From positions 416,501-480,500 of the forward strand of contig JAXDDX010000212.1 of assembly GCA_034670405.1 (NCBI GenBank): 64,000 bases of DNA, given 5' to 3'. Below are positions 1,724-58,700 of the stretch, in pieces. Made by a program: the position numbers and the translations under genes. A model generated the notes under the pieces. The model did no database searches. It saw only the letters and a list, made by a program, of their open reading frames with translations, and was not told the DNA's origin. Positions within the stretch are counted from its first letter, which is position 1. Each line of letters starts with the position of its first letter. Source of the DNA: Hoplostethus atlanticus. Taxonomy: Eukaryota > Chordata > Actinopteri > Trachichthyiformes > Trachichthyidae.

Positions 1724-3757
1724 TTGGCTGCTAGCTAGAGAGCCCATCAGGATGTGATGGGGGCCAGCTGCTGCCCCAGGGCTCATTCTGACTATTGGGG
1801 GAGAGGGGGAGAGAGAGAGGGAGGGAAGGAGGAATGTCAGGAATCCCATGGGAAAAACACTGACCGTTTGTTTGTTTGTTTTTCTTTCTTTCTATCACTC
1901 CAGCTTGATATGTCTTCCTATATATCTATATATGGGACATAGCTGTATTCCTGCTTTTACTGTGTGTCTGCGACATGTTAAAGCCTAACTCCAGCCATTT
2001 TTGACCTGGACCCTATTTTCTCATCATTTTCAATCATACTGATTGATTCTAACTAAAATCTCTCAAAGCTTTTCTGCCCTTTTCAGCCCCACCGTCTGAT
2101 TTCAATGTGGGGGACAATAATAATTAGAATAAGAACAATAAAAGATGAGAGATGAGGTACAAAAATGACATTTGGGGCAGGAAATGAGATCATTAGCAAG
2201 GCAAAAACGGAACATGGTTGGAGGGTGATCGACACTGAGACAGAGACGGAGAGAGATGGAACGATGGCTCACTTAAAAAGAGGAAGAGGAAGAGAAAACA
2301 GCAGGAAAGAGCTGGAAGGGTCAGCCATCCATCAGTGACATTTAGGTCATTAGTCTATTTACAGACAGCTGGCGCTGTGTTTCCACTCATCATGTGGAAC
2401 CAATATTTAATTAAAGCTGAGCTGAGGGAGGGCTAATTGGGACGGACCTGCCCTCGGGGGTTACATAGCATGTCATTTTGAGCTACAAATCCTTCAACTG
2501 CTTTTCTTTGCATTATTAAAGGGTTAGAGTAACAGGTAGGGTTGGCGTGACGTCTTTCCATAGACGAGTGAACGTCACATACTGTATGACGGCTAGAAAA
2601 AACACTGATTGATGCACACTGTTTGCTCAAGATCCACTGAGATGTTTGGTCGGGGCCCAGTATGATATTTGTTCAGGACCCAGTGGCATGTTTAGGTGGG
2701 CCCTGGTAGTATGTTTGATCAGCACCCTGTGGCTGAGGTGGTTCAGACGATCTCATGGTCAATATTCATGGTTATATTCAGTTCAGTTTCACTTGTTTCA
2801 GGATAGTCAATATTTTGAAACAAAGCAGAATAAGGCACATCACTGCACTAGTATCAAAAAAAATTCTTAAACAACTTGATTTGTATTGCATTGGAAACAG
2901 GTGGAATTATCTCACCCTAACGGCAATGATGTTTCTTTTACGTTTTTTTCTTTTTAACAAAAAGAAAAATAAGGTTTTCGGGCTCAGTACTAGATAAAAT
3001 GACTTAGTAGCAAATCAGTAGGAGTAGCAAATCATTCATAGTGCTTGTTTTAACTAGGCTTGCAGTGCCAGCTGGGTGGGGTTTGCCACATAGGAGAATA
3101 CAATGAGTGCCGGAAAATGAAGACAATCACAGGGAAATTATTTGATCGACAGTTTAGTAGATCTTTCTATGATTGACAACTGAGGCAACAAGGTAAGTAA
3201 TTGCAGATCTTTCTTTAATAATAAAGAGAGGAAAAGATGCTTGGTAAAGAGTTGTAGCTGTATGCTGTAGCTAAATATATGAAAACCGGGCTAGAATGCC
3301 TGAAAGAAGGTGTGGTTGTAGTCTGTTTAGTAACATTATATGTAAAAGTGAATATTCCAATAATGAATATATTAAATAATGTAGATTTGTTTCCAAATGT
3401 CTTTAGCCCTAGTCTCTACTCCAAAACACTCTCAGTTGTAGCTTGAGAAGAGTCAACAAACGGTTAGCTAGCTAACTAGCCAGCAGGCTAATTTAGCAAA
3501 GCAAACAATGTTTATGTTAATATGCAACTACCAACTTCTTCTAGATGCTGTACATTACCAACTGTGCTAATCAGATGTGTTAACAAGACAGTGATGGTTA
3601 GCTGACCAGATACTATTAGCTAGCTACCACCTAACAAGACAGTGATGGTTAGCCAACAAGCTAACTGAGGGATGTTGAGGGATGTTGTGTACTAACCATT
3701 TATTGTTTTCACACGTTGGGCACTGTGAAGCCCTTTGAGACTGTAACGCTGATTAAG

Positions 3758-4198
3758 TATGGAGTCAGTTAACTCTCATAAGTCACAAATGATACAACAC
3801 GATTCACAAATATATTTTGCGATTTATATATAAATGTCTCTGTTCACAAATATATTTTTCAATGCACACACAAATGTGTATCGTTTCATATAAATGTAAA
3901 AAATATATATATATATAAATGACAGAAGGTTCACAAATAAATTAGTGTTCACAAATGTCTGTTTCCGATGCACACACAAATACGTCTCGTTTTATATAAA
4001 TGTAAAACAAATCCACAAATATACTCAGTTAAAAACAGCTGCAGTGTTCATCTAAAACATATTTCAATGTTGTTACATTTATATACAGATTGTCGAATCT
4101 GCGTTTAGAAACCTCCAGACGAGTTGTGAACCTCGTTACATTTGTGTGGGTTTTTGAGAGTTTCCTGACGTGGTTAGATTCACAAATGCATTTTTTCT
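3758..4198 (+). repeat. Left terminal inverted repeat of the composite transposon
   Basis: About 441 bp rich in CACAAATATATTT/CACAAATG-type motifs. It matches the reverse complement of 9049-9495 nearly end to end, with small indels such as the TATATA run near 3903-3920. Confidence 0.88.
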
Positions 4199-4894
4199 GC
4201 ACAAGCAACAAAAGGAAACCACAAATGTAGTATTTTCTTCGTTAATAAAGATTTTAAAAATATTATAAGCATCGTATTGTATGCCGATGTCTCTACTTCG
4301 CTAGTTAACGTTACAACATTGTTTTTAGGCTGATTTGTGCATGACAGTCCCGCATTTTGACATATTTCCATGTTGCATTTCCCCCCTTTGATGGCATATG
4401 ACGCCGAAATATAACTAAAGTCCAGCAGCGAAGTTGCTGCACTTGTTACGGCTCCTCTAATATCAGTGCAGACTGGCAGGGTAACGGTAGCAGCACGGCT
4501 TGCTAGCTACAGAGCACCGCTAACGCTATTCTGTCAAGAAGTGGCCCGGTAATGAAGCAGTGGTCTTTTTTATTTGATGACTTGTTTGATCGATTAGTAG
4601 CGTGAAACGTATAAGTTGTGAACGAATCGCGAGCGTCCATGCTTTTCTATCGCCATCAGATGAATGTGTCACTGTGATAATACCATTATTGCCATAGTAA
4701 TGTCCGATAACATACTTGTCGCGTCTGTTTACGTAAATGTCATCGATGACGTATCAGGGTCTTGAAGGGTTGTCCCATTTCATAGGGAGAGATTTCAACC
4801 ACTACCCCTTGTAACTCTGTTCCGAGGGCCAAGCCGAAGGGCGAGGGGCCTCGAAAACGAGTTGTAGGGGTGAAAATGAGAAATGGGATTCGAC

Positions 4895-5888
4895 CTAAAT
4901 GTAGAAGAGACTTTGGCATTGTTTCATGAACTGGGTGAAGGGGAATCTGTTGGTGGACGTTGCAGTACGTGTTTCCCAGTGGGACCTTTGAGGGAGTAAC
5001 ACAGGGGGCGGAGTCCAGTCAAAGACTGTCGCGGAAGTCATAGAGCTGTACTGCCCGATATATGTTTGATATCAGTCAGGTGTTTGAAGATACGTCGTTG
5101 TTTGTACTTATTGCTATAATTAAACACTTATTGAAACAGTGGAGACGTCTCAGACTTGAGCGAGGAGGAGTGTTCGTCTGATTCTGGCTATGAGCCAGAG
5201 GGACCGTAGTCCGGGTAAGCATAGGTTATTATTTTTTCACGTAGGCCTAATTTATGTTATTTCGGGTTTAGGGCTAGGTTGAATTAGTTTGCCGTCAAAC
5301 GGATCGCGCCTCTCTGTAGATTAGATTGGATTGCTCTTTATTGTAGTATAGGTCCTATACATTCATGGAAGCACAGCTGCTTCAAAGTGCAACGTTGTGC
5401 AAAGTTTAAAAAATAAGTCGGAAAAAGCGGAATCTAATGTAATGTAATCTATACAGAGGCGCGATCCGATTGATGGCAAACTAATTCAACCTAGCCCTAA
5501 ACCCGAAATAACATAAATTAGGCCTACGTGAAAAAATAATAACCTATGCCTACCCGGACTACGGTCCCTCTGGCTCATAGCCGGAATCAGACGAACACTC
5601 CTCCTCGCTCCAGTCCACATCGCTCAAGTCTGAGACGTCTCCACTGTTTCAGTCAGTGTTTTATTATAGCAATAAGTACAAACAACGACGTATCTTCAAA
5701 CACCTGACTGATATCAAACATATCTCAGACAGTACAACTGTATCACTCACGCGACAGTCTTTGACTGGACTCCGCCCCCTGCGTTACTCCCTCAAAGGTC
5801 CCACTGGGAAACACGTACTGCAACGTCCACCAACAGATTCCCCTTCACCCAGTTCATGAAACAATGCCAAAGTCTCTTCTACATTTAG
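4895..5888. repeat. Large palindrome, two ~435-bp arms around a ~100-bp loop
   Basis: Left arm about 4895-5328 and right arm about 5432-5888 are inverted copies; for example CTAAATGTAGAAGAGACTTT at 4895 returns inverted ending at 5888. Both arms carry the same short exon-like frame reading SEEECSSDSGYEPEGP then stop, pointing toward the centre from each side. The right arm has 12 extra bases (DVDW) that the left lacks. The structure is probably the paired ends of a separate DNA transposon nested in the larger element. A related inverted TCCCATTTC motif lies just outside the left arm, near 4782 and 4880. Confidence 0.75.
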
Positions 5889-6021
5889 TCTTCGGTTTGA
5901 TCTCTTCATCCTCTCTCTCCTCATCCTCTTGCTCCTCAAATAGCAGGCAATAGTGGACAATCCTGACGCAACTCAAATAGACTACTGCTCTGTGTTTCGG
6001 ATTGAGATTGTTTTGGGGTGC

Positions 6022-6432
6022 TAGTGCGAAATGGCCTAACATAGCAAAGAAATGCCGGTCCGATCGCAGCCCAGTTTTCACATGCCGAGTCAGCTTTAGT
6101 TGGCCCGACACCGGAACCCGGAGATGGCCCGACTTCATTTTGAATGACTGCCCAGAATCGGGCCGAGTACATCGGCCCAGTTCCGTCTGCCGAATCCAAG
6201 CCGATTCTGCCGACGCTGAACCAGAATAGGCCCGATTTAAGATTATATACCCAGATAGCAAAGAAATGCCGGTCCAGTTGCGGCCCAGTTCTCACCTGCC
6301 GAGTCAGCTTTAGTTGGCCCGACATCGGAACCCGGAGATGGCCCGACCTTGTTTTGAATGACGGCCCAGTTCCGTTTGCCGAATCCAAGCCGATTCTGAA
6401 CCAGAATAGCCCCAGAACAGGCCCGATTTAAG
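6022..6432. repeat. Two tandem ~200-bp copies of a GGCCCGA-rich repeat
   Basis: The segments starting near 6044 and 6253 both run ATAGCAAAGAAATGCCGGTCC, then AGTCAGCTTTAGTTGGCCCG, and both end GGCCCGATTTAAGATTATATA. Weaker relatives rich in TCTGGGCC motifs are at about 8560-8770 and 28000-28085. The reading frames across them have no recognisable product. Confidence 0.75.
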
Positions 6433-7262
6433 ATTATATACTATTCCCTTTCCATCCTCACTGAATTCTTTAATTCCCTGTAAATAGTCTAAAATAACTA
6501 ATTGTCTAAATTTTCTAAAATATACAACACAGTTTAACAAACATTTACATTCATATAATATATTGTATAAAACCCAAAAAGCACAAATATTTGATAATGA
6601 AAAGTTGTGGTATTGATTGACAGCAAACACTGAATTGCACCATTCTAATATTTATTATAAACAATTGCAAGAATATTGAATATATACACACATATATATG
6701 TATATATATAATTAAATAATTAATTCTCTTCTTCTCACTGGTCTTTCCTCTCTTGCCTTCCTTCCTCCATCTCTTAATGTATTTCTCGATCTCCTCATCC
6801 ACTGCCTTCACACAAAGAGAAAGAGTCAAGGGAAGGAAACAGAGTGAGAGACTAGACAGACAGATAGACCCATACACCCACTAGAGATGAACAAACTGAA
6901 CAGTAAAGCACAAGTAGAGTCCGCACACCATGATAGCCACCTGCTGGTCGGAGTACAGCAACCACAAATATGAGAAAATCTCTTTAAAAAAGGTTCAAAA
7001 TCAAGTTTTACAGCACCAAATTATAATTCTCCGTTTTTTTTCATATTTATTCAGTGGCTTTGGCGGCTAACAAACATCTGAAAATGATCTTTCTAAAAAC
7101 TAGCTTAAATGCATTTCTCCATTCAGAGACCCCTTTGAAGCTACACACATGACTTAAAATACATATTCTCTCAAAAAGTGGATGCAAAGGACTCAAACTA
7201 AAGTCACGTTAGACTTAGTTAATCTTTAAGAGTGTAAATATCAGATTAACTGACACCCGTTA

Positions 7263-8254
7263 ACTCGGACTGCGAGGAATCTGGGTGTGACCCTGGACGA
7301 CCAACTGTCGTTCTCGGCAAACATCGCATCAGTGACGCGCTCCTGCAGATTCCTCCTCTACAACATCAGGAGGATTCGCCCCTTCCTCACTGACAAGGCA
7401 GCGCAGGTGCTCATCCAGGCTCTTGTCATCTCCCGCCTGGACTACTGCAACTCCCTCCTTGCTGGTGCCCCGGCGTTTGCCATCAGACCTCTGGAGCTTG
7501 TTCAGAAAGCTGCAGCTCGTCTGGTGTTCAACCGCCCCAAGTTCTCCCATACAACTACCCTTCTCCGTTCTCTACACTGGCTCCCTGTAGCGGCTCGCAT
7601 CCAGTTCAAGACCCTGGTGCTAGCCTATAGGGCAGTGAAAGGAACAGCTCCTTCTTACCTCCAGGCTATGGTCAAGCCTTACACCCCCGCCCGACCACTT
7701 CGCTCTGCTGCCTCGAGGCGACTGGTTGCCCCGTCGCTCAGAGGCCCCTGCGGCCGATCTACACGGTCACGGCTCTTCTCTGTTCTGGCCCCGCAGTGGT
7801 GGAATGAACTCCCCACTGATGTCAGGACAGCAGAGTCGCTGCCCATCTTTCGCCGCAGGCTGAAAACCCACCTCTTCAAGAAACACTACCCTGACTCTTC
7901 CTCTTAGCCTTGCCTATTTGTCGTCAATTATGTGTCTGAGCTCTTGTTTATTGGCTCTTGTTCATTTGATACACTTATTTGTCTTAGCTCTTGCTTATTT
8001 GGTTCACTTAGTTGTCTTAGCTCTTGTTTATTTGATTCTCTTATTTGTCTCATTTGTTTAAGATATAGTAGGTTGCTAACTTATTGCACTCTTACCTTAA
8101 CACTAGTTATGCTCTTAGTTGCTTGTTTAGGAAGGAAATGCACTTACGATTTCTGGTGACTAGTAGTTTTCTTGCCTACCTATGTTGAATGCACTTATTG
8201 TAAGTCGCTTTGGATAAAAGCGTCTGCTAAATGACTGTAATGTAATGTAATGTA
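7263..8254 (+). mobile_element. L2-type LINE, 3' end with C-terminal reverse transcriptase fragment
   Basis: An uninterrupted frame to the stop at 7905-7907 carries the C-terminal part of a non-LTR reverse transcriptase: TLDDQLSFSANI, then RPFLTDKAAQVL, SRLDYCNSLLAG, LVFNRPKFSHTT, SLHWLPVAARIQFKTL and PQWWNELPTDVR. This order is that of vertebrate L2/Maui LINEs (established family knowledge). The 3' UTR ends TAAGTCGCTTTGGATAAAAG, CGTCTGCTAAATGA and short TGTAA repeats, the tail shared with fish SINEs, two of which are also in this window. The 5' part, with the endonuclease and RT catalytic region, is missing, so it is a typical 5'-truncated insertion, here inside the 5.7-kb composite element. 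Confidence 0.88.
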
Positions 8255-9048
8255 GTCGCGCTAGCGTGCTAATGTTAGTTTATTTTAGCTGTAACGTTAG
8301 CGGTCGCTTCTACCAGATTTATTTTTAAAAGATTTGAGTGCAACAACAGTAAAATCACAGCATAAATGGCAATTTTGTTAGTTAAACTACACAAACCTAT
8401 GATGGTGACATTACTCACCTGGAATTACTAATAAAAAATACACCATTTCGTAGGCTGAAGGATTGCAGCAGCAGAGTCAAAACGCCAAGTGAAAACTGAA
8501 GCTCGAGCCCTCTACTCAACCAGATATGTTTCATAGTGTTGCTAGGCAATGAAATATAGTCATCTGCCGAATATTGACCAGAGTTGGTCCAAATTCAGAC
8601 ATCATGATCTGGGCCATATCCGGCAAGCTACAGTCGGGCCAGACTCTTTCCGTGACAATAAACCAGTATTCACCCAAGCCCTCCACTGTATCTGGCTCAG
8701 CTGACAGCAGCCGAATCTGACACTCAGCCGATTGTGCCGTCAGTCAAGTGGGCGCTGGCCCGAGTCTCATTGCTATCTATGGTTCAAATATTACCTAGCT
8801 AACTTTTCTAGCTGTGTAAATAATACATTGTTAGCGAAATCAGACGATCATAATTCAAATGTATTCAATCACGAACGACAAGGGAATTATTGGCTAAACG
8901 TGTTATGTTTAATTACACTTGGAGTACTGCTACCGGACGCCAAACTCGTCGGGATTAGGGACGTTGAACGCAGCATTGACATCACACACTGGTGTGATTG
9001 GCTGAACTTGAAAGAGACGTCTGATAGGCTACAGAGAAAGGCCCTTTA

Positions 9049-9495
9049 GAAAAAATGCATTTGTGAATCTAACCACGTCAGGAAACTCTCAGAAACCCAC
9101 ACATAAATGTAATGAGGTTCACAACTCGTCTGGAGGTTTCTAAACGCAGATTCGACAATCTGTATATAAATGTAACAACATTTAAATATGTTTTAGATGA
9201 ACACTGCAGCTGTTTTTAACTGAGTATATTTGTGGATTTGTTTTACATTTATATAAAACGAGACGTATTTGTGTGTGCATCGGAAACAGACATCAGTGAA
9301 CACTAATTTATTTGTGAACCTTCTGTCATTTATATATACTGTGTATATATTGTTTTACATTTATATGAAACGATACACATTTGTGTGTGCATTGAAAAAT
9401 ATATTTGTGAACAGACATTTATATATAAATCGCAAAATATATTTGTGAATCGTGTTGTATTCATTTGTGACTTATGAGAGTTAACTGACTCCATA
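9049..9495 (-). repeat. Right terminal inverted repeat of the composite transposon
   Basis: About 447 bp, the inverted counterpart of 3758-4198. It ends TTAACTGACTCCATA directly before the ATTAAG target duplication. Confidence 0.88.
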
Positions 9496-9501
9496 ATTAA
9501 G

Positions 9502-18100: not shown

Positions 18101-19464
18101 CAGTCATCAACTACATTGACAGTAAGTGTGAGGACTTCCTGAATGCCGAGTCGAGAGTGAACCGCAGACTGATGCCAGACAACAGAGTCCACTGCTGCCT
18201 CTACTTCATTGCACCCTCAGGACACGGGTAGGTACTGCCTGAGATGAGATGAGATGAAATAAGATTAGGTTAGATGAGGTAGAATGAGGCGAGATGAGGT
18301 AAGTTACAGTAAGATGAGGTGATGTAAGAGGATATGAAATGAGATAGAACAAGATGAAAAACTGAGAAAAGTTGAGATGATGTAAGATGAGGTGACGAGA
18401 TGAGGTGATATAAGATGCAGTGAAAGGAGGTAAGTTGAGGTGAGATGAGATATTACATTACAGTCATTTAGCAGACGCTTTTCATCCAAAGCGAATTACA
18501 ATGGTGATAGTCAAAGCTATGTGGGGCTCGAACCCACGACTCTGAGACTTAGTCTCATGCTCTACCGACTGAGGTAGCCGGCCCAGATATGATAAATTGG
18601 GGTGCGATAAGGTAAAATGAGGTGAGATGAAATGAGTTAAGTTAATGTAAAAATGTGATGAGGTGAAATTGAATTGATTGATTGGAAATTGGGTCAGCTA
18701 ACAATAACAGGAAGGGAACCGCAAGGGAAAATAGAACATAATTAGAATAAAGAAAATGGGTTTATTTAAACATAACAAAACCAACAATTACAAGACTAGA
18801 ACGTATCGTAGTAATACATGAATGAGAATTATGGAAATGTGAGTAACAGCGGTAGGACGGATATGAAAAAGGGAAACAAATGAATGACAAAATCTGTACG
18901 CTATGAAATTAGGAAAACAAATGTTTATTTACAGCATATAAACAATGTGTGAAATAATCGCTCTAGCCAGTATAAAAAGGTTGCAACTAAAAGTACCGAC
19001 ACAACAGCGAATTTGAAACCAAGCCCATGTGACAAGACGTCCTTTAAAGTTGCCAGATCACGTTGGTCTAAGATCCTTATCGTTTGCTGCAAAACGAGTG
19101 TGCGTACGAACAGCCGACGGGTAACATGATTTCTGTTTTTACCTGCAATGGCTTAGTATAGTAGTATTCATTTGAGTCTGTGCAGTTATGTGGGCCTACA
19201 TCAGGAAGGAAAGGTGTGTGTGTCTCTACAGCTTCTTTGTCGAGACCATGGAGGGCTATGCAAGTTGTGTGTGTGCCTGCGTGCATGTCTATGCCATAGA
19301 TGAGGAGGCTGCCAGCGAGTGTTTGTGACCCTCAAAGGTTATATAACGCTCTCAGTTCTGCTCATGCTCAGTCAGGGTCTTGCTCTCCATCGCCAAGCCA
19401 CCCAATCACAATCCAGGCTAGAAGAGCAGCTCGAATAGAGGGCAGTCACACTCTGTCTTCCCTC

Positions 19465-19506
<42 letters not shown>

Positions 19507-22500
19507 CGCGTGTTAATTTGGCATCACCAGAACATTTGCTGCGTCTCGATGTAGCTACTGTTGCAGCCAATTAGTTTCCTCAAAGCCCAAAACCCGTCCA
19601 CATCACAGGCCCAGTGGAAAATCATCTAAATCGTCTCTCGTTTGTTGGGAAAGCTATAAAGTCATACCGAGTGTCTATGGCGTTACGGAATCATATGGTA
19701 ATAATACAATCCCATTCCACTGAAATGAAATGGCTTTAAAGGAAAAAAAGATACTTATATACCATCAATATGTGACGTTCACTGCTTTCCAAGTGTGTGG
19801 TAATTTACTTTAACGGTGTGTCCACTTTCCCTCAACCTACCTCATCTACTTCTACTTCAGTTAGCGATTTTAAACGCCATTGTAGCTGCACTGGAAATAC
19901 CAAAACATAAGAGTCTGCATGCCTTAAGACTGTTCAGCTCCTGTTCAGGTGATGTTTTAGGCCGACTTCAAACAGGGTCAGGGAGTTTTGATCCATTTTC
20001 TGTAGAATTCAGGAAATATCAGTTTTTTGTTCATTTTTTTACAAATTGATCACTTTACAGGAATATACCAGAATCTATTTTACAACTTGTTTCATGCATT
20101 TATTACAATAGATGGTGGTTTTCAGCCCAACTGCAGTGAAAACCAGACTACCCCAGACTACCCCACCCCTTCAAACCTACATAGGCAACTTAGCCAGTCA
20201 GCGAGAGGTAACTGTTTGGGTTTTGAGGACTTCAATACCCAGAAATCTTCTACGGTGATGTTGGTAAACTGCGCACAGCACACTCCAACCCGGCCGGTCC
20301 GTGATGACCAAAGGGATGAGACAGGAAAAGATCTGTAAAATCTACCGCTAGTTAGTCCAGGATGGAGAAGTGACCATACCCAAATTAAATTTGAGCCAAC
20401 AGGGTGAATCTACAGGGTCTCAATTAGTGGAGATGGGGCTCTTCTCTGTTGCAGCCCCTTGCCTAGACACACTGACACACTGACTCCTGTATTGTCTGGT
20501 ACATTCGTTGAAGGACCTGTATGATACAATTCACCATCCAGGGGTCTGTTCCAAGAAGCAGGTTCAGAGTCTAACCCTGCACTCTGAGTTGATTCATTCC
20601 GAGATGGCCAAGTCTGAGTTTTCGGGTTCCAGAACGGCTGATCTGAGTTAGTTCAATCAACTTTGAGTAAGTTCACCTTGAGTTAAGCGCGTGCGCGACG
20701 ACAATAAAAAGCCATCATCAATGGAGGTCCGATACTACGATTCACCATGGCAACCAGCAAGCAGAAGGGTCGTAAAGGAGAGGGAATTGGCGTGGGAGAG
20801 AATCGCTGCCCGAGTCAATGCGTACGTTTGAATGCAGCAGTGTATTCATTTAACATTTAACCACACTTTCTTATAATGTTACCTACATGTGAGAAAGTGG
20901 TGGAATGGTATAAGCGCTCTTGGCAGCAGCTGAAAATGAAATATAAAAACATTACAGTCATTTAGCAGACGCTTTTATCCAAAGTGACTTACAAAGGTGA
21001 TAGTTAACACTATGTGGGGATCGAACCCACAACCCTGAGACTCTAATGCTCTACCAACTGAGCTGTCTGGGCCAGACATACTTCAAATGGTGTACTTGGG
21101 GCGACAAATTAGAAAGGCAGATGTAGAAATGTAATTACTGGAACATAAGTTAGAGGTGGGTGCACGGTCACAGGTGAAATGTGTTGTTGGAACAATATAA
21201 AATACTAACTGTTGCTTTTGTATTTGTAGGAAATAAAGAAGACCAAATGAAAGGTGTCTTTATTTGACTGCTCGGGGTGGTGGTAGCTTAATCCGTGAAG
21301 TGTAAACGGCATATTATATCTCGGACAGCTCTTCCATCCTGGACATAGAACATCTAATCGGGTCTCAAAATCCTCTCCCGACGTGAGGCTATGCGAATTA
21401 CTTCCGCTTGAATATCGATCGGGTTACCGAGGAAAGGACACGCCATGTCCGACAGCTGCTTCAGGTTCAGCAGAGGGAGGAGACAGGGAGAAAGTCAGGG
21501 TTTGTTCAAGAAAACCTGCCAGCCAGCAGGTTAGGTTCACAGAGTCAGTTACCATGGTAACTGAATCAGAGTTTGAGTTACCTCTCTTTCTGGAACGGAA
21601 AACCCAGAGTTTCCCTCATCTCAGGGTTAACAAACTCAGAGTTTTCACTAAACCCGCTTTCTGGAACAAGCCCCAGGGCTGGTGTACACAGACACACACA
21701 CACACAAACACTCTTACTGAGTTGTTAGTGCATGTGGGATGAGTCCCTCTCTACCTCATATGCCCCCTCATATGACCGGTGAACAGCTGTTGCTCTTTGC
21801 ATTCCTGGAATAGGTAGCCCTCCTACCCCACCTACACACACACACAAACATGTAGGTGCATAGTTTATATGTACATGAATCAAAATTATTGTACATTCAT
21901 ATAGGCACACAGTAAACGGACACCTACTGCATTGAAACACACACCAGGAGGTTGTGTGTACATGAATCTAATTGGTTGTGCATTCATATATGCAGCAATC
22001 AAACACAAACATCTGTCCCTTAATGCTGTACACGCATGCCGCCGTGCATTCTGTCCACACCTCCGGCCCTTCGCTCCACAGCCCACCACCCCGATGCCCG
22101 GACAGAGCTCACTGTCTCTGGCCACGCAACCGGAGAAGAGTCCCCTTTGTTCTCCAGACAAGAGACGGAGAGCCCATGGGAGCGTTACAAAGACAATCCC
22201 TCATCAACCCACCATGACATAATAATGAGTCGTCACCAGAGAAGAAGAACACATTAGGCAAAACGTCAGTCACGCTCAACTGACTTCTTTGGTTTCCATT
22301 GCAGGGTTTTGTTTGCCCTCTCCTGGAGACCCACTGAATTACACCTAGTTTCAGCATTAAGGCAGTGAGGAAGGATCTCAGGCTGCTTTTGGTGTCTTTT
22401 AGGGTTTTGTAAATGAATTCTTAATTTGATGATCTTTCCACCAAGCATGAACAGATTGCCCATTTTGGTGCGGTTATTTTGCCCTTAATTTATTCATTAC

Positions 22501-25500: not shown

Positions 25501-28500
25501 GGGATTCTGGAAAAGGAGGACAGACATGGTGTATTATGGGATATGTTGTTGCAATATGGCAGCAAGCACTGACTCACCCTATAGACGTCTGAGAGAGGCT
25601 GACTGTCACCTTCTTTTCACCATTAGCCACGATGAATTATTGCTGTCAGTGGTGTGTTACAGTTTTCCACTTAAGTTTTCCATTTGTTTATTCAAGTCCT
25701 CTGTAAGACGATAAATATCTATATATCTATATATAAAGTTATATACCTTTTGTTTCTCTGTGGTTGACCGTTTATCAGTCTTTCACTTTTTCATTCTTTT
25801 CTCTCTTTTTTTTTTTCCTTTTTATCTTTCTGTCTATCCTTTTCCATGACTGACAGAGGGCGTTTTTGGTAAACAAAAAAACATCTTTCACCTTTTTCGA
25901 CCTCATCTCTCACCCTCTCCACCTCCCTCAGGGTATCCTCCATTCCCTCCATCTGTCCTTTCTCCACCTTTCTGTTGCTGTGCTGTATCATCTATAGCTG
26001 ATGGTCAAACCGATGCTCTAATCAGACTTGGGCTAAATCTTATTGAAATATTTCCAAATACTTAATGGAATACACCACGTTTTTGGGAGTCCTGTTAAAT
26101 GATGAGAACATAGACACCAAAATCATCCATGTGTCCCTGGTAGATCGTTGGCTTCGGTGCTCCATGCTAACACTAGCATACACTATGTTGCGTGATAGTA
26201 GGCTCCATGCTAACACTTTAGCATACACTATGTTGAGTGATAGTAGGCTCCATGCTAACACTTTAGCATACACTATGTTGAGTGATAGCAGGCTCCATGC
26301 TAACACTTTAGCATACACTATGTTGAGTGATAGTAGGCTCCATGCTAACACTTTAGCATACACTATGTTGAGTGATAGTAGGCTCCATGCTAACACTTTA
26401 GCATACACTATGTTGAGGGATAGTAGGCTCCATGCTAACACTTCAGCATACACTATGTTGAGGGATAGTAGGCTCCATGCTAACACTTTAGCCTACACTA
26501 TGTTGAGGGATAGTAGGCTCCATGCTAACACTTTAGCATACACTATGTTGAGTGATAGTAGGCTCCATGCTAACACTTTAGCCTACACTATGTTGAGGGA
26601 TAGTAGGCTCCATGCTAACACTTTAGCCTACACTATGTTGAGGGATAGTAGGCTCCATGCTAACACTTTAGCCTACACTATGTTGAGGGATAGTAGGCTC
26701 CATGCTAACACTTCAGCATACACTATGTTGAGGGATAGTAGGCTCCATGCTAACACTTTAGCCTACACTATATTGAGGGATAGTAGGCTCCATGCTAACA
26801 CTTTAGCATACTTTGGAGCCAGCAATCTACCAGGGACACATGGATGATTTTGGCGTCTATGTTCTCATCACTTAGCAGGTAATCTGCCCAACAGGCCAAT
26901 CTCCCCCAAACTCTGTGTATTCCTTCCTTTCCTTTAAGAGTTTGATAAAACCTCCTTCACGCTCAACATCTCAAAATTTCAAATCCCATCTGCCTGGTGT
27001 TTCCAACAGGTTTAAGCCTTTCACATCTGAAAGATTTTGGTATTTTCAAGCCGTGTTGGGTTTTGCCCCAGGTCTGATGCTGTTAATAGTCATGGAGAAA
27101 TCTAGAGGCTGTTTGGTGCTGATGCTACTGCTGCAATAGAAGCACTTCACTCTCTAACTCTGTGGTTCCCTTCTTTGCTCCTATGGTATCACATAATGTG
27201 CTGCCGTTGAGCTATAACGCCCATTTTACCGCAAATGATTCAGCTCAGTGTTTTTGTTTGAGTTGAATTGGTTGTGTTGGTGCAGAGTGACAACGAAGAT
27301 GTGCAGGCTTAGCGGTATCACTGGACCAAGGAATGGGATCCACCGTTCTAACTCATTGCTTATAGGTTCATGAGCGGTTTATGATAAACGTTAGGGCATG
27401 TATCTTACTGTGTAAGTCATCATCAAGGTAACACGCGGCTTGGCATCACAAGTTCTCGCTCAGCCGCATACATGGATTTTGATATGGGAGATTTGGCATA
27501 GACACATTTCATATGCATACAAACTCACATGCATACGCACACACTTAGGCATGTTTCAAATAAACAGCTTATGTGCTCTTGACTCATAAAACCAAAGTAG
27601 TTCATCATCATGACCTAGATAAACATTGCTAGTAGTTAAAGCACTCCGGCGCAAAACACCTGATGGACAGAGTTGCTTCTCCATTCACATCCATGTCAAA
27701 TTGATTGACCAATAGAGAACGGATATGACATGGATCAAACAAGCATTATCCATGTTGAGTATGCATCAGGTATTTTCTGCCACCCATCAACAAATAGGGT
27801 CTGTTTCCCATTAGTTAGTTACAACCCCTTTTGTTTCCTATAACCCTTGATCCCACTTGGCCTCTCTACTTGTCCTTTCATTGAGAATAGCGCCCTCAAC
27901 TGGTCATCCGCAGACCCTCACATAACAATCCCGCACCCACTCCCCCTACAAGCCCACTTCTCTGTAGCTAGTCAGCTTGGTGCAGGTTATGGTGTTGATC
28001 TGGGCCAAATCTGGGCTGAATCTGGGCCAAACGTGGGCCGATTCTGGGTCAGAACCGGGCCAAGTCTGAGCCAAATATAGCCCATCTGCTCCAGACCCAG
28101 ATTTTGTCCTCCCACTGGGCGTTGACAGTAACTGAAAAAAACATACCCCCTCCCCTCCGTCAGAGCTCCCTCAGCTAGAAGAGGCAGGAGGTCAATGGCT
28201 GGCTTTGGAGGCCAAGGGGCGGGACTCCTTAAGTTTCATCAATGGTAAGGTGTCCTCCTTATTCGCTCCCCTGATGTTGACTGACCGCTGGTGGGGCGGA
28301 GGCGAACCACTTAAGGAGCGTCGTGTGTGACGAGGAAGAGGGCGGGTATCATCCTGTGACATCGCATACATCCGCAGCAGCAGTTTACCTGCAGTCTTTT
28401 TCCAGAATCCCATCTGATTGTGTAACTTGTCTTTGATGTTGAGATGAAAACTCACAACCATCTAACTGTCTGAGTCTCAAATAAGACCGACTCCGTTTTG

Positions 28501-44103: not shown

Positions 44104-47100
44104 ATGGATACCCCCGAGAAGGCCGACGAGGATCCTGATAGGTAAAATATTTTTTTTGTCTAAATTTGAACATCTATATTAACTTTGATCCCAGTCATTT
44201 TATTTGATTTGTTTGTTTTTCAGTCCAGTCCATTTTGAGAAGCCACTCTCGCCTGCTGTATCCTGCGTGTCCATGAAAAGTGACAACTCATTAAAGGCTC
44301 CTCCTGATTTCAGCAAAGAACTGTCAGTAGTTAAATAGAGCATATCTTTTTAACTGATTCAAATGAGAGCTGATGTCTTTCTGATTTCAGCCAGCTAATT
44401 AAATGTGATTCTGAAGAACCATGCAGGTCCTTGAAGCACTGTGATATTAAAATGCTCTTTTAAAAAATATATTATTCTCATATTCCCCCAAGAGACCCAC
44501 ATGAAGGTCCAGAAGTAACAGTTCCAATGGACGGAAATTACATTTTTAAGGTAGGCAGACATCTCTTCCTCCTAAAGTACATAGCAGCTGAAATAAACTA
44601 CATGACAAGTAAAAATGTCGACTCACACACAAAGCACACGTACTTGTACATGTAAAATAAATATCCCAAATAGATTTCACTTTATTCATAACCTGTAACT
44701 CCATTTCAGTCAGTGGAGGTCCACGGCATGAACATCTTGTTGAGTGAGTTCAGACGTTACAAAAGGATTCTCTTCCATGATCAACCAGACTCCTCTGAGA
44801 GTCAGGATGAGGATGACGTTTTGTCTCCTGAAGATACAAAAGAAGACAGCAGTGCCAGAGAGGGGGCGCTAATGATCACACTACATATCTTAAAGGAAAT
44901 GGGCCATAGTGAGCTTGCCAACATACTGGAGAAAAGTAAGTACCAAGAGTAAAATGGATAGAAATGGGTCCCTACTAGGGTTTGAACGATATGGATTTCT
45001 GAAGACCAGTACAGATATAGATACCAATATTTTGGATTGAAGCTGCAGATATTTTGTGTCAATATCCTATTCTAAATTTGACCATTTTCATGCCAAATAG
45101 TTGCATGGATTCAGTGTTTTCCCCCAAAAGTGTATTCTTTGCAAAGTGGGAAATACTCTGAAACAGCATTTAGACCATCATGGTACACTAAAAACACTCC
45201 CCATTGAAACCCATACTGATGAAGTTCTTTAGGTGAGTTCGCTCCTTAAGGAAGGGTGCAGCAGCTGTCTTTGCAGATTTTACAGCTTGGTACAGCTGAA
45301 GCTGGGATGGATGACATTGACTGACCGCTACCGTCACATCGCTCCAACTGTAGTTGTTATACATGCTTGCAATAAGAAACTTAATACTAAGATAGTCGTA
45401 TATCTACAGAAAACTCAGTCAGCTTTGATGGGTATCGTAAAACTCAAAGTGAGTTTACAGTAGGGTTGCTTACATGGTGGCCTGGTGGTTAGAGAGACAA
45501 TAGGAACAGGAAAACCAGTTTCCATGGGCACACTATGTGGTGACTGCACACTGCAAACACCACACCTCCCTCAGTGTTTGCACATGAGGGAGTAAGTCAT
45601 TTGCCTCAGAGCGAAAGCTGCGTAGTTGATCTATGCTCTAACTTGAGTCAGAGAATTAGAAAATAATATCTGAACCAGCATAGAGTTAATATGTGCAGAA
45701 ATTGGTGTTTTATAACATCTCCACTACCAAATCTAATTCTAGTCCTCTAAATTCAAATGAAGGTTGTATCACTAAACATGATGCCTTGTCTTGCCATGAT
45801 TACAAGATTAATTTCATGTCTTTGTAAAACTAGAGATTTACGGTGAGCTTGATGTCTGCCAGCGCAAACTCAAACTCAAACTGAAGAAGTTTGAATACAT
45901 TTCTGAGGGAATAGCAAAGCCGGGTAAACAGACACTTCTCAACAAGGTGTATACTGAGCTCTACATCACAGAAGGAGACGGTGGAAACGTCAACGATGAA
46001 CATGAGGTCAGGCAGATTGAGACTGCAACCAGGAGACTAGTAACCCAAGATAAGACAATCAAATGTGAAGACATCTTTAACCCCCTACTCGGGCAAGACA
46101 AATGTATCAGAACTGTGCTGACAAAGGGAATTTCTGGCATTGGAAAAACTATCTCTGTACAAAAGTTTAATCTGGAATGGGCAGAGGGAAGGGTCAATCA
46201 GGATATCCAACTCCTAGTTAATCTTCCTTTTCGGGAGCTGAATTTGATGGAGAGAAACTACACTTTGACCCAGCTTCTTCATCATTTCCTTGTGGAGGCA
46301 AAAGAATCGGGAATCTCAAATTTTGGCAAATATAAGCTTGTGTTCATCTTTGATGGCTTGGATGAGTGCCGACTTCCGCTGGACTTCAAGAACAATGAGA
46401 CCTGCTGTAGTGCCTCAGAGCCAGCTTCATTGGATGTACTGCTGACAAACCTCATCAAGGGAAATCTGCTGCCCTCGGCACACATCTGGATCACCTCCCG
46501 ACCTGCAGCCGCAAATCGCATTCCCTTTGAATGCGTCGACCGTGTGACGGAGATACGAGGGTTCAATGACCCCCAGAAGGAGGAGTACTTTAGGAGAAAA
46601 ATCTCTGATCAAGTCATGGCCAGTAAAGTCATCTCACATGTTAAGTCATCCAGGAGCCTCCATATCATGTGCCACATACCAGTGTTCAGCTGGATATCAG
46701 CCACCGTCCTGGAGAGAATTTTAGAAGAAGCAGAAAAGAAGAGAGGAGGGGAGGGGAGTGCAGGAGAAATGCCCAAGACTCTGACGGGAATGTACACCCA
46801 TTTTCTGGTCTTCAACACATTGATCAAACACCAGAAATATTCAGCAGGAGAAGAGAGAGCTGAAACAGACGAAGAAATGATCTTGAAACTTGGAAAACTG
46901 GCCTTTGAGCACCTGATGAAAGGTAATCTGATCTTCTACGAGAAGGACTTGAGGGAGTCCAACATCAACATCACTGATGCCACAGTACATTCAGGACTGT
47001 TTACACAGATCTTAAAGAATGATTTGGGATTGTACCAGGTGAAGGTGTATTGCTTTGTGCATTTCAGTATTCAGGAGTTTCTTGCTGCATTGTACGTTTT

Positions 47101-49341
47101 TCACTCATTTATCTGCTGCAATCAGAACCTAATGGAACCACAAGAAACTACCGCTGTCAAGCCAGACACCAAAGATGCAGCCATCCTGGTCAAGAGCGCA
47201 GTAGATAAGGCCTTGCAGAGTAACAATGGACACCTAGATCTTTTTCTTCGTTTCCTTCTTGGCCTCTCACAGACATCTAATCAGACTTTGCTGCATGGCA
47301 CACTGACTACAATGAGGAGCAGTTCTCCAAGCAATAAGGAAACTGTTGACTACATCAAGGAGAAGATCAGGGAAAGTCCATCTCCAGAAAGATGCATCAA
47401 TCTCTTCCACTGCCTGAATGAGCTCAATGATCAGTCTCTTGTGGAGGAAATCCAAAACTACCTGTGCTCTGGTAGTCTCTCAGAAACCAAACTTTCACCT
47501 TCACAGTGGTCTGCTCTGGTGTTTGTGTTGCTGACCTCCAAGGAGGAATTGGATGTTTTTGACCTGAGGAAATATTCAAGATCTGAGGAGGGTCTTTTCA
47601 GGCTGCTACCAGTGATCAAACAATCCAGAGTAGTCTTGTGAGTACAGAATAACATTACTGCCTGCCTCTAACAATATCATAAATATGTTGTTTATCTCAA
47701 AGCACAGAACATTTGAGTTTCATGAATGTCAAGTGATTACTTTAAAGTGCATTTTTGGACATCGACATATTGTCAAATGCAAAATACAGTGTAGAGGTCT
47801 ATCGCTGCCAATCTTCTCAGCGATGGTCTTTCTTGTTTAAAGCAATTATACTAATGTCTCAAAATGAATGTTTGAATGGTTTATTGATAATATAATACAC
47901 ATAGCACCTTTTAACAAATGGATGCAGTGTAGCAATTAATCAGTTTAAACAATTTAAACAATTTGTCTTCTACAGGCTTAAAGAATGCAACCTCACAGGA
48001 AAATGCTGTGAAGCTCTTGCATCAACTCTCAACTCAAACTCAAGTCTAAGAGAGCTGGACCTGAGTGACAATGATCTGCAAGACTCAGGAGTAAAGCTCC
48101 TGTCCGCTGGACTGGCAAGTCCAACATGTCAACTGGAAAAACTGAGGTTTGTTAAGAAATACTGACACAGGCTAACTGACATTCAATGACACATACTATT
48201 ACAAAAGAGACACACTTACTTGAGGACTATACCATTATCATCTGAAGTGTGAGGTTTCAAAATGAGGAAGCTGAGATAAGCTAGCAATATCAAACTAAAA
48301 CAGTCTTAAACCGAATTCTGTGTTACATTCAATGAACTTTTATCCACCTTTTTTACCTCCATTTTGTCTTCCTCTATTTCCAGGCTGTCATTCTGTGGAA
48401 TCACAGAGAGAGGCTGTGTCTCTTTGGCTTCAGCACTGAGGTCCAACCCTTCCCACTTGAAAGAACTGGATCTGAGTTATAATCACCCAGGTGAATCGGG
48501 GATGGAGCTGCTGTCTGCTGTACAAAAGGACTCTGAACTGCTCAGTCTCAGGTATAACGTAGATTGTTTTCTTATTATCACATGAAAATACATGTACAGA
48601 ATTTTGTCATAATAATACATCTTTGGTTTTCTTAGTTTCAAGGGCAATGCAGAATGCTTCTTAAAAACAGCTCTGAAGACATGTAAGTGTTTTAAAGTTT
48701 ACAATATGTGAAATATTTGGCTTGAATAGTGCATGCATGTTACTGAAAGACAGTGTTTCTTCCTTGTCTCTGTTTGACCAGATGCATGTGAGCTCACACC
48801 GGACCTAAACACAGCCCATTCTCAGCTGTCTTTCTCTGAGGACAACAAAAAGATGATGCGAACGGAAGCAGTCCAGCCGTTTCCTGACAACCCTGAGAGA
48901 TTTACGGACTGGGGACAAGTGCTTTGTAAAGAGGGTCTGTCCGGCCGTTGTTACTGGGAAGCAGAGTGGACGGGGGAATGGACAGGTATAGGAGTGGCAT
49001 ATGAAGGAATCAGAAGGAAAGCAAAAGGTAACGATTCTGTTCTTGGATACAACGATAAGTCCTGGAGTCTGCGTTACTGTAAAGGCAAATACACTGCCTG
49101 GTACAATAAGAATGGTGAAGCTATACCCGTCCCCTACTTCCTCTCCAAAAGGGTTGGAGTGTATTTAGACTGGCCGGCTGGCACCCTGTCCTTCTACGCT
49201 GTACTGTCAAACACTATGACTCACCTGCACACATTCCAGACTACATTCACTGAGCCAGTCTACCCAGGGTTCAGACTGGGATATGACGACAGCTCACTAT
49301 CTCTGTGCCAGGTAGAATACCCACCCAGCAGTAAAACATGA
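44104..49341 (+). CDS. NLRC3-like NLR protein, FISNA-NACHT-LRR-B30.2 (fish NLR-C type)
   Basis: A cytosolic nucleotide-binding leucine-rich-repeat receptor of the large teleost-specific NLR-C group, presumed to act in innate immunity. Nine exons join in frame: 44104-44141, 44224-44322, 44493-44550, 44710-44935, 45834-47637, 47976-48146, 48384-48551, 48636-48682 and 48782-49341, totalling 1056 codons plus TGA. Order: N-terminal segment with [20 protein letters not shown]; a helical segment ([20 protein letters not shown]); FISNA and NACHT in one large exon; two LRR exons; a short linker; PRY-SPRY (B30.2). Walker A is GISGIGKT (about residues 239-246) and Walker [11 protein letters not shown] (about 309-318). 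The start ATG has an acceptable context (AAAATGG) but an upstream exon cannot be excluded. The gene appears intact; only two LRR units is at the low end for the group. The ligand is unknown. Confidence 0.92.
45834..47637 (+). CDS. FISNA-NACHT exon of the NLR gene
   Basis: One 1.8-kb exon codes the fish-specific NACHT-associated (FISNA) region ([43 protein letters not shown]) and the NACHT ATPase with [20 protein letters not shown] and [14 protein letters not shown], then the winged-helix/superhelical part ([34 protein letters not shown]). The apparent stop just after 47637 is intronic: CTT|GTGAGT is the donor and the codon is completed at 47976. Confidence 0.92.
47976..48551 (+). CDS. NLR leucine-rich-repeat exons, two exons
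   Basis: Exons 47976-48146 (171 bp) and 48384-48551 (168 bp) each encode one NLR-type LRR unit: [38 protein letters not shown], then [38 protein letters not shown]. Both start in phase 2, as is typical of repeated LRR exons, so units can be added or lost without a frameshift. Confidence 0.9.
48782..49341 (+). CDS. PRY-SPRY (B30.2) terminal exon of the NLR gene
   Basis: Codes about 186 residues. PRY begins [20 protein letters not shown] and carries [18 protein letters not shown] has [46 protein letters not shown] and the closing [18 protein letters not shown]. The usual LDY motif reads LDW here. The exon resembles the B30.2 of fish TRIM proteins, a domain for target recognition in related receptors. 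Confidence 0.92.
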
Positions 49342-55724: not shown

Positions 55725-58700
55725 TGTAGGGTACTTGTGAGTAATCATCCAACGAGCCTCAAAGCCATGCATGCATCCTTCCCACTCCAGTGCTTGTTCA
55801 GTACAGTAGCCTGCAGCGGGGTCTGATCTGTTGATGTATTCCCATGCTTTAGGAAACTGCATCCCATGCCTTGTTGTGCTCAGGAGAATCAATCACACAC
55901 ACAAAGGAAAGAGAGACCACCATGCAAACACATATTCAAGATTGGGAAGAACACAGCCAGAGGAGATTCAGAAGCAAGAAACTCTCTTTATTGTTGAGTG
56001 CAAATCTCTACATGATAGAAAAGAAAAAGGAAAAGAGTTGTGTGTTGCTTCTAAATTACACAGAATTAGGTGGTGGTTAGCAGTTCACTTCTCTAAGGTC
56101 TCAACTACTATAACTCTAACCCACAACTGAGTGACCTTGAACTATTGTTTCTCACTGATCTGATCTAGGCGTGGAAGGGTAAGAGCAATATGGCGGAAAA
56201 GCATTCCAGATTAACACTTGGAGGAAAAACAAGGAGTGGACATTAGTGCCATGGAGAGCCAGGTCAGGATATGACACGTTCACTATGAAGTTTCAATAAT
56301 ATCATAAATCTGTTTCAAACAAAGTAGGTAAATATGCCACTGTACATGCACCAGACTCTCCAGTTCCTGGCTTCCCCCAGTGACTTCCCATGACAACACT
56401 GTCTGCTCCTTGTTTTTTTATTTCTAATATTGCGTTCCAGCCCAGGTTGAACCTGTCCTGCTTGTTTATCCTGCATAAAACAGCATATACAGTATAAGCC
56501 ACTTAAAAGCACTCAGATATGAGTACACCTTCTCTCATCCGCAGTCTAACAATAAAATAACCTTGTAGTCGATACAAGAAAAGGCTGTATTAATGTGGAT
56601 GGTAATATAAAAGGGTGTAAACATGTTATATGCTGATGTGATTATGGAGTGTAGGAAATGAAAGTGGACAACTACCTCTGGCGGGTAGTTATGGGCACAA
56701 AAAAAGAGGAGAAATAGTAGCAGGAGTTGATGGACTGCGTATTGTTACAGGGAAAGCAGAACACAAGGATTTATGGGAAATAGTAGTTACAGATAGATCT
56801 CACAGCAATTTGGTTAGGAGTGCGTATTAGTTTATAGTCATGATTAATAACTATCTGTAAGTCATGTTATCTTAAAGGAAGGACTTTGACATTTTGAATT
56901 TCAGCGTGTTACTTTTTTCACCAATCACACCCTCAGTTCTGTTAAAATGTCTTGTTAGCATTGTTAGTCCTGGAAAACCAAGTCCTCCTTGAAACCAAGG
57001 GGCGCGGCTAGCTGCGAGCTAGTGGCTAGTACTTCAAAATGTCCAAGTATTCCTTCAAGGATAAAACCAGCATGTCCCCACACCTGACTTCATTGTGCTA
57101 TTACACAAAAGCAACCTTAAAGCTAGCTCTGAGACGATTCTGCGGTGGAGATGTGCTGTAAACAAAGTGCGGTTGACAGAAACATTGATTTGTGACAAAG
57201 GCAAAGGGGTTAAGGGATCATCAGCAAAACAAGGCACTTAGATTTCATCTGAAGAAAAGAAAGCGGGGAGGTGTGATCATGATTTGTGCCACTAGCGTTG
57301 CCCACTTTCTTCATATCTTCAACCTGAAAATGTAATTTTCCTTTACCCAACATTTACCCCAGTCCTCTATATTCTCTATATACCAAATCTCTACAAAATA
57401 TAACTGTACAACTGTATACTGAAAATATCCCTCAGTAATAAATAAAAGTGTACATGTACAAGGTGTGTAAATGTACAGAGATGGGCTATTCTCTCTACTT
57501 TGTGGTGATAAAGATGGAGAGAAAGGAAGGCAGAGTGATGCCTTCAATTCCCTCCTTTTCTCAATGGATTTACATTCAGAATTGTGTCAGTGAGGTCCCA
57601 CCAGGGGGCAGTGGTACGAAGGTTCACTTTAACCCCTGAACCTTAAAAAAAACAAAAAAAAACAGGGAGCGACTCTGTCCCAGTCCAAACCAGCTTTCCC
57701 CTCCTACTCCTCAAAGCAGCCCCAGTGCCCATATTGTCTCCCATTGTTCTTTGCAAGCCCAGCCTAAAGTATTAGCCAAGCTAGCTAGCTAGCTAGCCAA
57801 AGCCTGTCCCGCCCTTTAGCTTGTTAGTGCTTGTGGTTAACGTCAACAACCAGCGTGTTAGCATCCCCGCTAAGTTATTATGTGGTTGGGGGCTGGAGGG
57901 TGGCGTAGCAGCAGTGGTGGTAATGGTGGTGGTCCCTGTGTCTGCTGCTGCTGCGCGGGGGGTGGCGGGTAACGTACGGAGGCTGGAGGGTCGGAGGTCG
58001 TGGAGGGCAGCCTGGAGGAGGAGGAGGAGCGCTGGGTGGAGGTGGAGAGGCCGGTACAGGAGCGCTCGCCCTGGCTAAGGTTCCTCTTGCGATCGCGAAC
58101 CAGCGCCCTCTGGTGGCGTTTCATGCGCTCCAGCTGCTCCTCGGCGCTCATTCGACCTCGCGGCTGGCTGGCCGGGGCCTGCTGGGCCTCGATGGGCGAG
58201 GACAGGCGCTCCAAGGCACTCTTGGGTCTCTCCTGGCGACAGAGAGAGAGGAGAGGGAAGATGTAGGGGGATTGGAAAGGAGATGGAGATGGATAGGATA
58301 GTGGAAAGAAAGGATGTTCAGTACAGATGGAGGATGGATGTGAAGAATGAAACGGCAGGGGAAAGAAACGGAGAGGTAAACAAAACAATAAAGAGAGGAA
58401 AAAGGGGAAGCGGGATGGAAACTGACAGATTTGGACACCATACAGTGACATACACACAAAATGCTACCAATGACTCACCCTGGCTGTAGGGGCCCCGGGG
58501 CCTCTCCGTAGGGTGACGTAGGAGGAGATGGAGTTGGACTGGTTCAGTAGAGATGAGGAGCCCAACAGACCTGGCCAGATGACATGGGAGCATGGGAACA
58601 GCACAATGTGGTTTAGTGTAGGCTTATTTTATTTGCACAGTGAAAATAACATTGAAGCAAATTGATAAAGTGACAATACATCAATAATAAGCACAGGAAG

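Follow-up and report, generated by a model that had tools for sequence, protein, structure and literature searches.

The Element and Its Target Site

The window analyzed here is a 64,000-nucleotide stretch of the genome of Hoplostethus atlanticus (contig JAXDDX010000212.1, termed C212, positions 416501-480500; the source assembly, GCA_034670405.1, comprises 632.8 Mb in 1161 contigs). Near its start lies an element with inverted ends, flanked on both sides by the hexamer ATTAAG, which is probably one of many copies of a non-autonomous, IS3EU-type family of DNA transposons. An earlier note on this DNA, made from the letters alone, had described a ~5.7-kb composite element with inverted ends and an ATTAAG target duplication; alignment of the arms and a window-wide scan for paired ends confirmed this description. 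The element and its immediate surroundings are organized as follows, in window positions.

3758-9495: the element, 5,738 bp, with TATGG...CCATA ends, inverted arms, and ATTAAG on both sides
3752-3757, unstranded: left target-site duplication ATTAAG, from the alignment and the end-pair scan; L013 and L039 carry the target repeat unbroken
9496-9501, unstranded: right target-site duplication ATTAAG, from the alignment and the end-pair scan
3676-3751, unstranded: left part of the target repeat, where the joined flanks match copies in L039 and L013
9502-9545, unstranded: right part of the target repeat, reaching 9545 in L039 and 9530 in L013

When aligned with each other, the arms at 3758-4198 (441 bp) and 9048-9495 (448 bp) agree in 434 of 450 columns, the rest being 5 mismatches and 11 gap columns, and the terminal bases of the element match at 20 of 20 positions between its ends. 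The left arm thus has the length of 441 bp given previously, and the right arm is corrected from 447 to 448 bp. Throughout the window, only one TAYGG/CCRTA pair no more than 8 kb apart is flanked by identical hexamers, namely the ends of this element, and no other copies of the arm were found within the 64 kb.

Joining the two flanks with one hexamer kept (junction at query base 100) produces a query with continuous alignments to L039 (query 19-144, 126 columns, 89%) and to L013 (query 19-129, 111 columns, 91%); here and below, L-numbers denote regions or loci of the same assembly compared with the window element. Each of these uninterrupted target repeats, which are observed directly, holds a single ATTAAG. 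Both are paralogous copies rather than an orthologous empty locus, and they are possibly not independent because they lie inside one common 2.3-kb repeat (L013 2104-4382 and L039 721-2994; 94%, 2,316 columns). The previous suggestion that removing one hexamer restores an interrupted repeat is upheld through paralogs; the term "LINE tail" (long interspersed nuclear element, LINE) for that repeat survives as the earlier note's name only. Folding of the joined flanks did not discriminate an empty site, as 150 of 1000 random right flanks folded equally well or better.

Dispersed Copies and Their Target-Site Duplications

A genome search with the left arm returned 437 first-look candidates; scoring of the best 40 produced 41 matches, 96-100% identical and including the window. 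The 18-base end TATGGRGTCAGWTAACTC occurs genome-wide, as an exact match, 126 times in forward and 123 times in reverse orientation, against 0 and 0 for a control sequence, and at least 31 inverted pairs no more than 15 kb apart were counted by eye among the 100 end places listed. A 14-kb pair of ends lies on C26 (600188-614176). The family is thus directly observed as many dispersed copies. The exact end sequence was found 0 times in a viral contig collection and 0 times in a genome contig collection, and a phage similarity search gave no match; among 187,555 bases of other fetched DNA plus the window flanks, the sole match to parts of the family was one diverged fragment beside L024.

Two sets of copies were compared. 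The first comprises 20 regions around the best left-arm matches, 8 of them picked because both ends were visible and 12 because one end was. A second end was present within 10 kb in 10 of these 12 single-end regions (L022 and L028 showed none within 10 kb), which runs counter to the scenario, raised before as one that would undo the element, of two unrelated repeats that always occur singly. The second set consists of 15 of the 27 listed inverted pairs outside the first, picked for exact TATGG-type ends. Together with the window, 17 elements from the first set and these 15 copies give 33 two-ended copies that are best-matching or exact-ended; L018, near-identical to L017, was dropped from the duplication counts and kept in the 18-element comparison of cargo described below. 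Near-identical copies or the same flanks occur on two contigs in the pairs C714/C330 (L017, L018) and C441/C427 (L006, L008), which are perhaps duplicate haplotype contigs or recent duplications.

The flanking hexamers of the window and the 17 first-set elements are identical in 5 of 18 cases (the window, L010, L012, L015, and L020) and agree at five or more of six positions in 9 of 18. When the left flank of one copy was paired with the right flank of another (n=306), none was identical and one agreed at five or more positions. The second set behaved alike, with identical hexamers in 4 of 15 copies (L038, L040, L046, and L047) and at least five of six positions agreeing in 10 of 15, compared with 0 and 2 among 210 cross-pairs. 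Pooled, 9 of 33 copies have identical hexamers and 19 of 33 agree at five or more positions, against 0 and 3 of 516 cross-pairs. Other copies with 6-bp duplications, sought as support for the element, therefore exist, and the duplication length is observed directly. Identical flanks of 7-10 bp were seen in 0 of 18 first-set pairs, and of 7-9 bp in 0 of 15 second-set pairs, so superfamilies characterized by 7-10-bp duplications, MuDR/MULE among them, were rejected.

These data also bear on two simpler explanations. Many repeats are AT-rich and contain internal sub-repeats, and unrelated ones could by chance have come to form an inverted pair; with an inverted second end in 10 of 12 single-end regions, most of them sharing the same interior, and a rate of identical hexamers that cross-pairs do not reach, a chance arrangement is refuted, its probability being close to nil. 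Alternatively, the element could be a TTAA-specific transposon (piggyBac or Kolobok) that targeted the TTAA within ATTAAG, the outer A and G agreeing by chance, and the window junctions can indeed be read as TTAA on both sides. Yet the other eight identical hexamers (GTTATA, GTTGGC, CTTTAT, ACTGTC, AAATAA, AATCTC, TAAGAG, and ACATAC) contain no TTAA and none extends to 7 bp. A TTAA target is refuted by these eight sites, where the duplications are 6 bp long and vary between copies, and its probability is practically nil.

The ends themselves are well conserved, with TATGG/CCATA at both ends in 16 of 18 two-ended first-set copies and one end altered in L011 and L018; second-set copies, having been picked for these ends, provide no test of end conservation. 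Read by eye, base 12 of the end is the same on both sides of 17 among 18 elements. In L019, which has no duplication, the two ends differ at this base, and this copy may be a recombinant. Two further copies have unusual features: the flanks of L014 show an inverted match (score 22) in place of a direct duplication, which may reflect a palindromic target or an assembly effect, and L047, 546 bp long and flanked by an exact duplication of 6 bp, is almost wholly one inverted repeat (86% against itself) and resembles a minimal foldback.

Arms and Box Arrays

The arms of the window copy comprise the following features.

3758-4198, plus strand: left terminal inverted repeat, 441 bp, starting TATGGAGTCAGTTAACTC, truncated relative to 11 of the 18 other copies, whose arms measure 582-651 bp
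8844-9495, minus strand: right arm at full family length, of which 9048-9495 pairs with the truncated left arm
4199-4278, unstranded: 80-bp stretch where siblings carry ~350-640 bp (456 in L027, 470 in L012, 636 in L015) and L020 carries 1.07 kb
3784-4187, plus strand: YAYAAAT box array, 13 boxes sharing one orientation and 3 reversed, with spacings of 16-25 bp (mean 20.9) among the first 12 forward ones

Arms of 582-651 bp, 93-99% identical between the two arms of one element, are found in 11 of the 18 other copies, and shorter or broken arms in the remaining 7 (L016, L020, L023, and L024-L027). Family arms are often ~620-650 bp long; those of the second set range from ~40 bp to 1,327 bp (L037). 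Judged against its siblings, the stretch at 4199-4278 is an internal deletion that shortened the left arm of the window copy. The idea that an element's own arms are more closely related to each other than to any other arm was not supported (5 of 16 and 1 of 15 elements). L037 and L038 carry another end subtype, TATGGGGTCAGTTAACTC, and an interior that is partly common to both and was not found in the first 19 elements.

The arms are internally repetitive. The left arm contains 16 YAYAAAT boxes, whereas 500 dinucleotide shuffles average 1.2 and never exceed 5; the element interior contains 7 (shuffle mean 3.8, maximum 11). As the motif was picked by eye on this very arm, an unbiased check was made with hexamers: the commonest left-arm hexamer occurs 11 times, counting both strands, more than in any of 500 shuffles (maximum 8). 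In seven other arms, 14-16 boxes recur at mostly matching positions. The boxes are putative transposase sites. As a single strand, the left arm also folds better than 100 shuffles (z -3.9).

A Nested Palindrome, a Nested Transposon, and an L2 Fragment

Three further components make up much of the interior.

4895-5888, unstranded: nested palindrome, 994 bp, an internal inverted repeat also seen in 12 of 18 other elements and hence part of the family body
6043-8778, unstranded: nested transposon with GGCCCGA-type subterminal repeats, AT at 6041-6042 and 8779-8780, enlarged by the L2 insertion
7266-8252, plus strand: 5'-truncated L2-type LINE fragment, private to the window copy among the 19 elements compared

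The nested palindrome, the GGCCCGA repeats, and the L2 3' end reported before are all present within the element. Their origin was examined by comparing the window element with the 18 others in listed stretches of ~40 bp or more: positions 3758-7265 and 8253-9495 are covered by 8-18 of these elements, and 7266-8252 by none. A common interior is thus observed, and the proposal that the window copy itself collected this cargo is rejected, since every listed stretch outside the private one recurs in 8 or more of the 18. As for the description of a carrier-like foldback element that has gathered other repeats, its foldback-like architecture and nested repeats hold, and the gathering by this copy does not.

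The two arms of the palindrome agree at 414 positions, with 20 mismatches, over 449 columns. Among the 18 other elements, the internal inverted repeat is at least 765 bp long in 7 and shorter in 5; L009, L010, L013, L016, L023, and L025 have none. Most of the palindrome in L009 was lost by deletion with ~2 bases of microhomology, according to our reading of the junction. Within the palindrome of L020, which has an exact 6-bp duplication, lies a 4.9-kb insert (element bases 2732-7634) with long frames that by eye resemble those of a long terminal repeat (LTR) retrotransposon.

GGCCCGA repeats occupy 6041-6441, further motifs occur at 8566-8790, and the block, like the palindrome, is common to other copies; in the sibling L027 the nested transposon measures 1.75 kb. 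Its limits can be read from L009 and L012, which carry an exact empty site, CCTAACAT followed directly by GGTTCAAATATT (GGTTC after the junction), equal to the window minus 6043-8780. Most simply, 6043-8778 is an inserted element that has the ends AGCAAAG.../...GCTATCT and is flanked by a 2-bp duplication, AT. L009 and L012 would then represent an apparent pre-insertion state; precise excision, the alternative, is less likely where the duplication measures 2 bp. When the genome was searched with 8253-8790, 101 candidates emerged, of which the best 40 were scored, the window included. Thirty-seven of the 40 matches reach query base 538 and one reaches 537, and so extend into host sequence by 11-12 bases; nearly all best-scoring copies of the nested element are composite. 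The other two (on C90 and C352) stop at base 526, corresponding to position 8778; each may be either a nested element inserted on its own or a composite cut at 8778. No free copy was found in the 187,555 bases of other fetched DNA plus the window flanks. On our reading, the composite probably formed first and then spread, an order that is legible because the apparent pre-insertion copies L009 and L012 are still present.

The L2 fragment carries a UnaL2 3' element at 8186-8240 (Rfam RF00436, 65.5 bits), and over half of 7266-8252 matches L032 (592 columns, 92%). Eleven siblings, with L017 and L018 both counted, are contiguous across its insertion site. Two further UnaL2 LINE 3' elements lie elsewhere in the window, at 20952-21005 and 18458-18512, both on the minus strand.

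A 105-codon frame at 8732-9049, open in the window, runs from the nested element (end 8778) into the right arm. Across the other copies its whole span is open only in L011, and the part present is open in L012 and L016; the rest contain stops or frameshifts. A gene at this position was rejected, as the frame spans the nested-element end and the arm and is broken in most copies.

Classification and the Search for a Transposase

Pfam searches among the copies covered the window copy, L027, L013, and the block specific to L038. No transposase domain was detected in six frames of the interior of the window element (stops as X), where a single sub-threshold match (E 0.02) belongs to an unrelated family. 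For L027 and L013, a single forward frame of each was searched, and for the 1.3-kb L038 block all six; these gave no such domain either. Frames of at least 180 codons, labeled by eye, occur in the window (L2), L019 (LINE-like), L020 (LTR-like), L026 (182 codons, GGCCCGA region), and L037 (188 codons). A possible source of transposase was sought through the integrase core family rva_4, which we take to be a likely relative of IS3EU; 151 genome matches were obtained when the best 150 of 307 candidates were scored. Thirteen loci were examined (L029-L036 and L052-L056, with L029 and L030 lying inside L035 and L036) and, lacking the ends of this family, were rejected as autonomous partners. L029 and L030 are part of a ~5.1-kb repeat (L035/L036) whose edges are not TAYGG. 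L056 (G000:C5:11026000-11034000) has 171-bp inverted arms with its own CACATA-like sub-repeats and non-matching ends; these arms resemble the family arms in style, but their letters differ.

Published descriptions provide a basis for placing the family nonetheless. Complete IS3EU families are described as always having TA..TA ends and usually 6-bp duplications (PMC10045372), and fungal IS3EU families as having 6-bp duplications, inverted repeats longer than 30 bp, and TAYGG..CCRTA ends (PMC12730594). Styx, a fungal element linked to IS3EU, likewise has 6-bp duplications (PMC10853768). IS3EU is listed as a Repbase superfamily (PMC5753468) and is known from fish: a teleost table gives 17,838 copies (0.21%) in the first of four columns of its IS3EU row, taken as zebrafish (PMC4746887), and the superfamily is reported in killifish (PMC12763893). 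The present family shares the TAYGG..CCRTA ends, the 6-bp duplications, and the terminal inverted repeats longer than 30 bp of IS3EU (with GingerRoot), three of four structural features, as well as its occurrence in teleosts; for the fourth, an IS3-like DDD/E transposase in the element or in a partner with the same ends, no domain was detected in the window element, and the 13 rva_4 loci lack these ends. The earlier statement that no family can be named with confidence is not supported (PMC10045372, PMC12730594). The present family differs from IS3EU in having no transposase gene in the stretches examined, in its box-bearing arms, often ~620-650 bp and 1.3 kb in L037, and in its palindrome. 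Foldback/Galileo of Drosophila has similarly long, internally repetitive inverted arms. This is an architectural resemblance only: Galileo belongs to the P superfamily by its transposase, and the present family points to IS3EU by its ends and its duplication length of 6 bp. The best label for the family is probably non-autonomous, foldback-like, and IS3EU-like, with membership resting on its ends and duplication length.

Two other placements have some basis. Polintons are much larger, with ends AG..CT, and the TATGG..CCATA ends seen here match IS3EU instead; moreover, polymerase, integrase, and capsid genes gave no Pfam match in six frames of the interior of the window element, although a non-autonomous copy could lack them. 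A non-autonomous relative of Polinton/Maverick, which would share the 6-bp duplication (PMC10045372) and the long arms, is therefore very unlikely. Dada elements have duplications of 6-7 bp. Because no transposase was found, the superfamily is judged from ends and duplication length, and another superfamily with duplications of ~6 bp, such as Dada or hAT6 (the latter known for 6-bp duplications from a title in a reference list), or a new one with convergent ends, could have produced this element. We regard this as improbable, since TAYGG..CCRTA ends with 6 bp are the description of IS3EU, copies of which are reported in teleosts (PMC12730594, PMC4746887, PMC12763893).

Several observations weigh against the IS3EU assignment or the evidence for it. 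The TAYGG..CCRTA signature is that of fungal families, the general description of IS3EU being TA..TA ends and usually 6 bp. An autonomous relative sharing the ends, proposed before as a check, was looked for and none was found: in the 13 rva_4 loci, TAYGG/CCRTA pairs flanked by identical hexamers were not seen, nor were pairs whose end bases agree at 14 of 20 positions, and matches to the family arm in the seven wider rva_4 regions amount to two weak ones, both in L052 (33-34 columns, E 0.019). Among the two-ended copies, which are a non-random sample, 14 of 33 lack a hexamer match of five or more positions; these may be recombinant, decayed, or mispaired. Finally, the target repeats of L013 and L039 may share one origin and would, at worst, count as one witness.

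The letters of the element ends and of the target repeat had no match in literature text, and no IS3EU-N or IS3EU-1 names appeared among the literature matches listed for nonautonomous or teleost IS3EU. The family thus appears new as far as this literature goes, and it may already be listed in Repbase or Dfam.

A Proposed History of the Family

The following scheme would account for these features. An IS3EU-like DDD/E transposase encoded elsewhere would bind the YAYAAAT arrays in the arms, join the two TATGG ends, and insert the element by a 6-bp staggered cut; this mechanism is deduced from ends and duplications, and the enzyme's identity, its binding to the boxes, and any current activity are putative. 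The palindrome was probably part of the element body already when a GGCCCGA transposon entered an ancestral copy; the resulting composite then reached many places with the inner transposon as a passenger. The window copy landed in a repeat, duplicating ATTAAG; it also received the L2 fragment and lost ~200 bp of inverted-repeat sequence from its left arm. Internal deletions led to derivatives down to ~0.5 kb.

A more specific version of this scheme is offered tentatively, and we would not be surprised to see it fail. Here, the family would belong to a foldback-like fish branch of IS3EU whose transposase reads ~16 regularly spaced boxes in arms of 620-650 bp rather than a short end alone; two transposons plus a palindrome, joined in a composite, would spread as one unit via the transposase of a partner, leaving a series from pre-insertion copies through composites to half-kilobase remnants. 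Nested or hitch-hiking transposons are known in general, one transposon being carried along inside another; in this case, by contrast, apparent pre-insertion copies persist and the order of events can be read.

A repeat that had no name is now defined as a family by its ends, duplication length, and stratigraphy, which may aid annotation of the genome of H. atlanticus and its relatives. The family also provides a natural case of a transposon carrying a transposon, in which apparent pre-insertion, composite, and deleted versions occur side by side, and the box array constitutes a testable prediction of binding sites for an IS3EU-type transposase.

Other Features of the Window

Outside the element, the window contains a repetitive region at 26040-26847 with long open frames on both strands. 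Further long open frames at 45812-47641 and 48778-49341 resemble, by eye, a fish NLR (NACHT) receptor and a PRY-SPRY domain, and a frame on the minus strand at 57870-58463 includes a stretch that by eye is PLEKHA-type-like.

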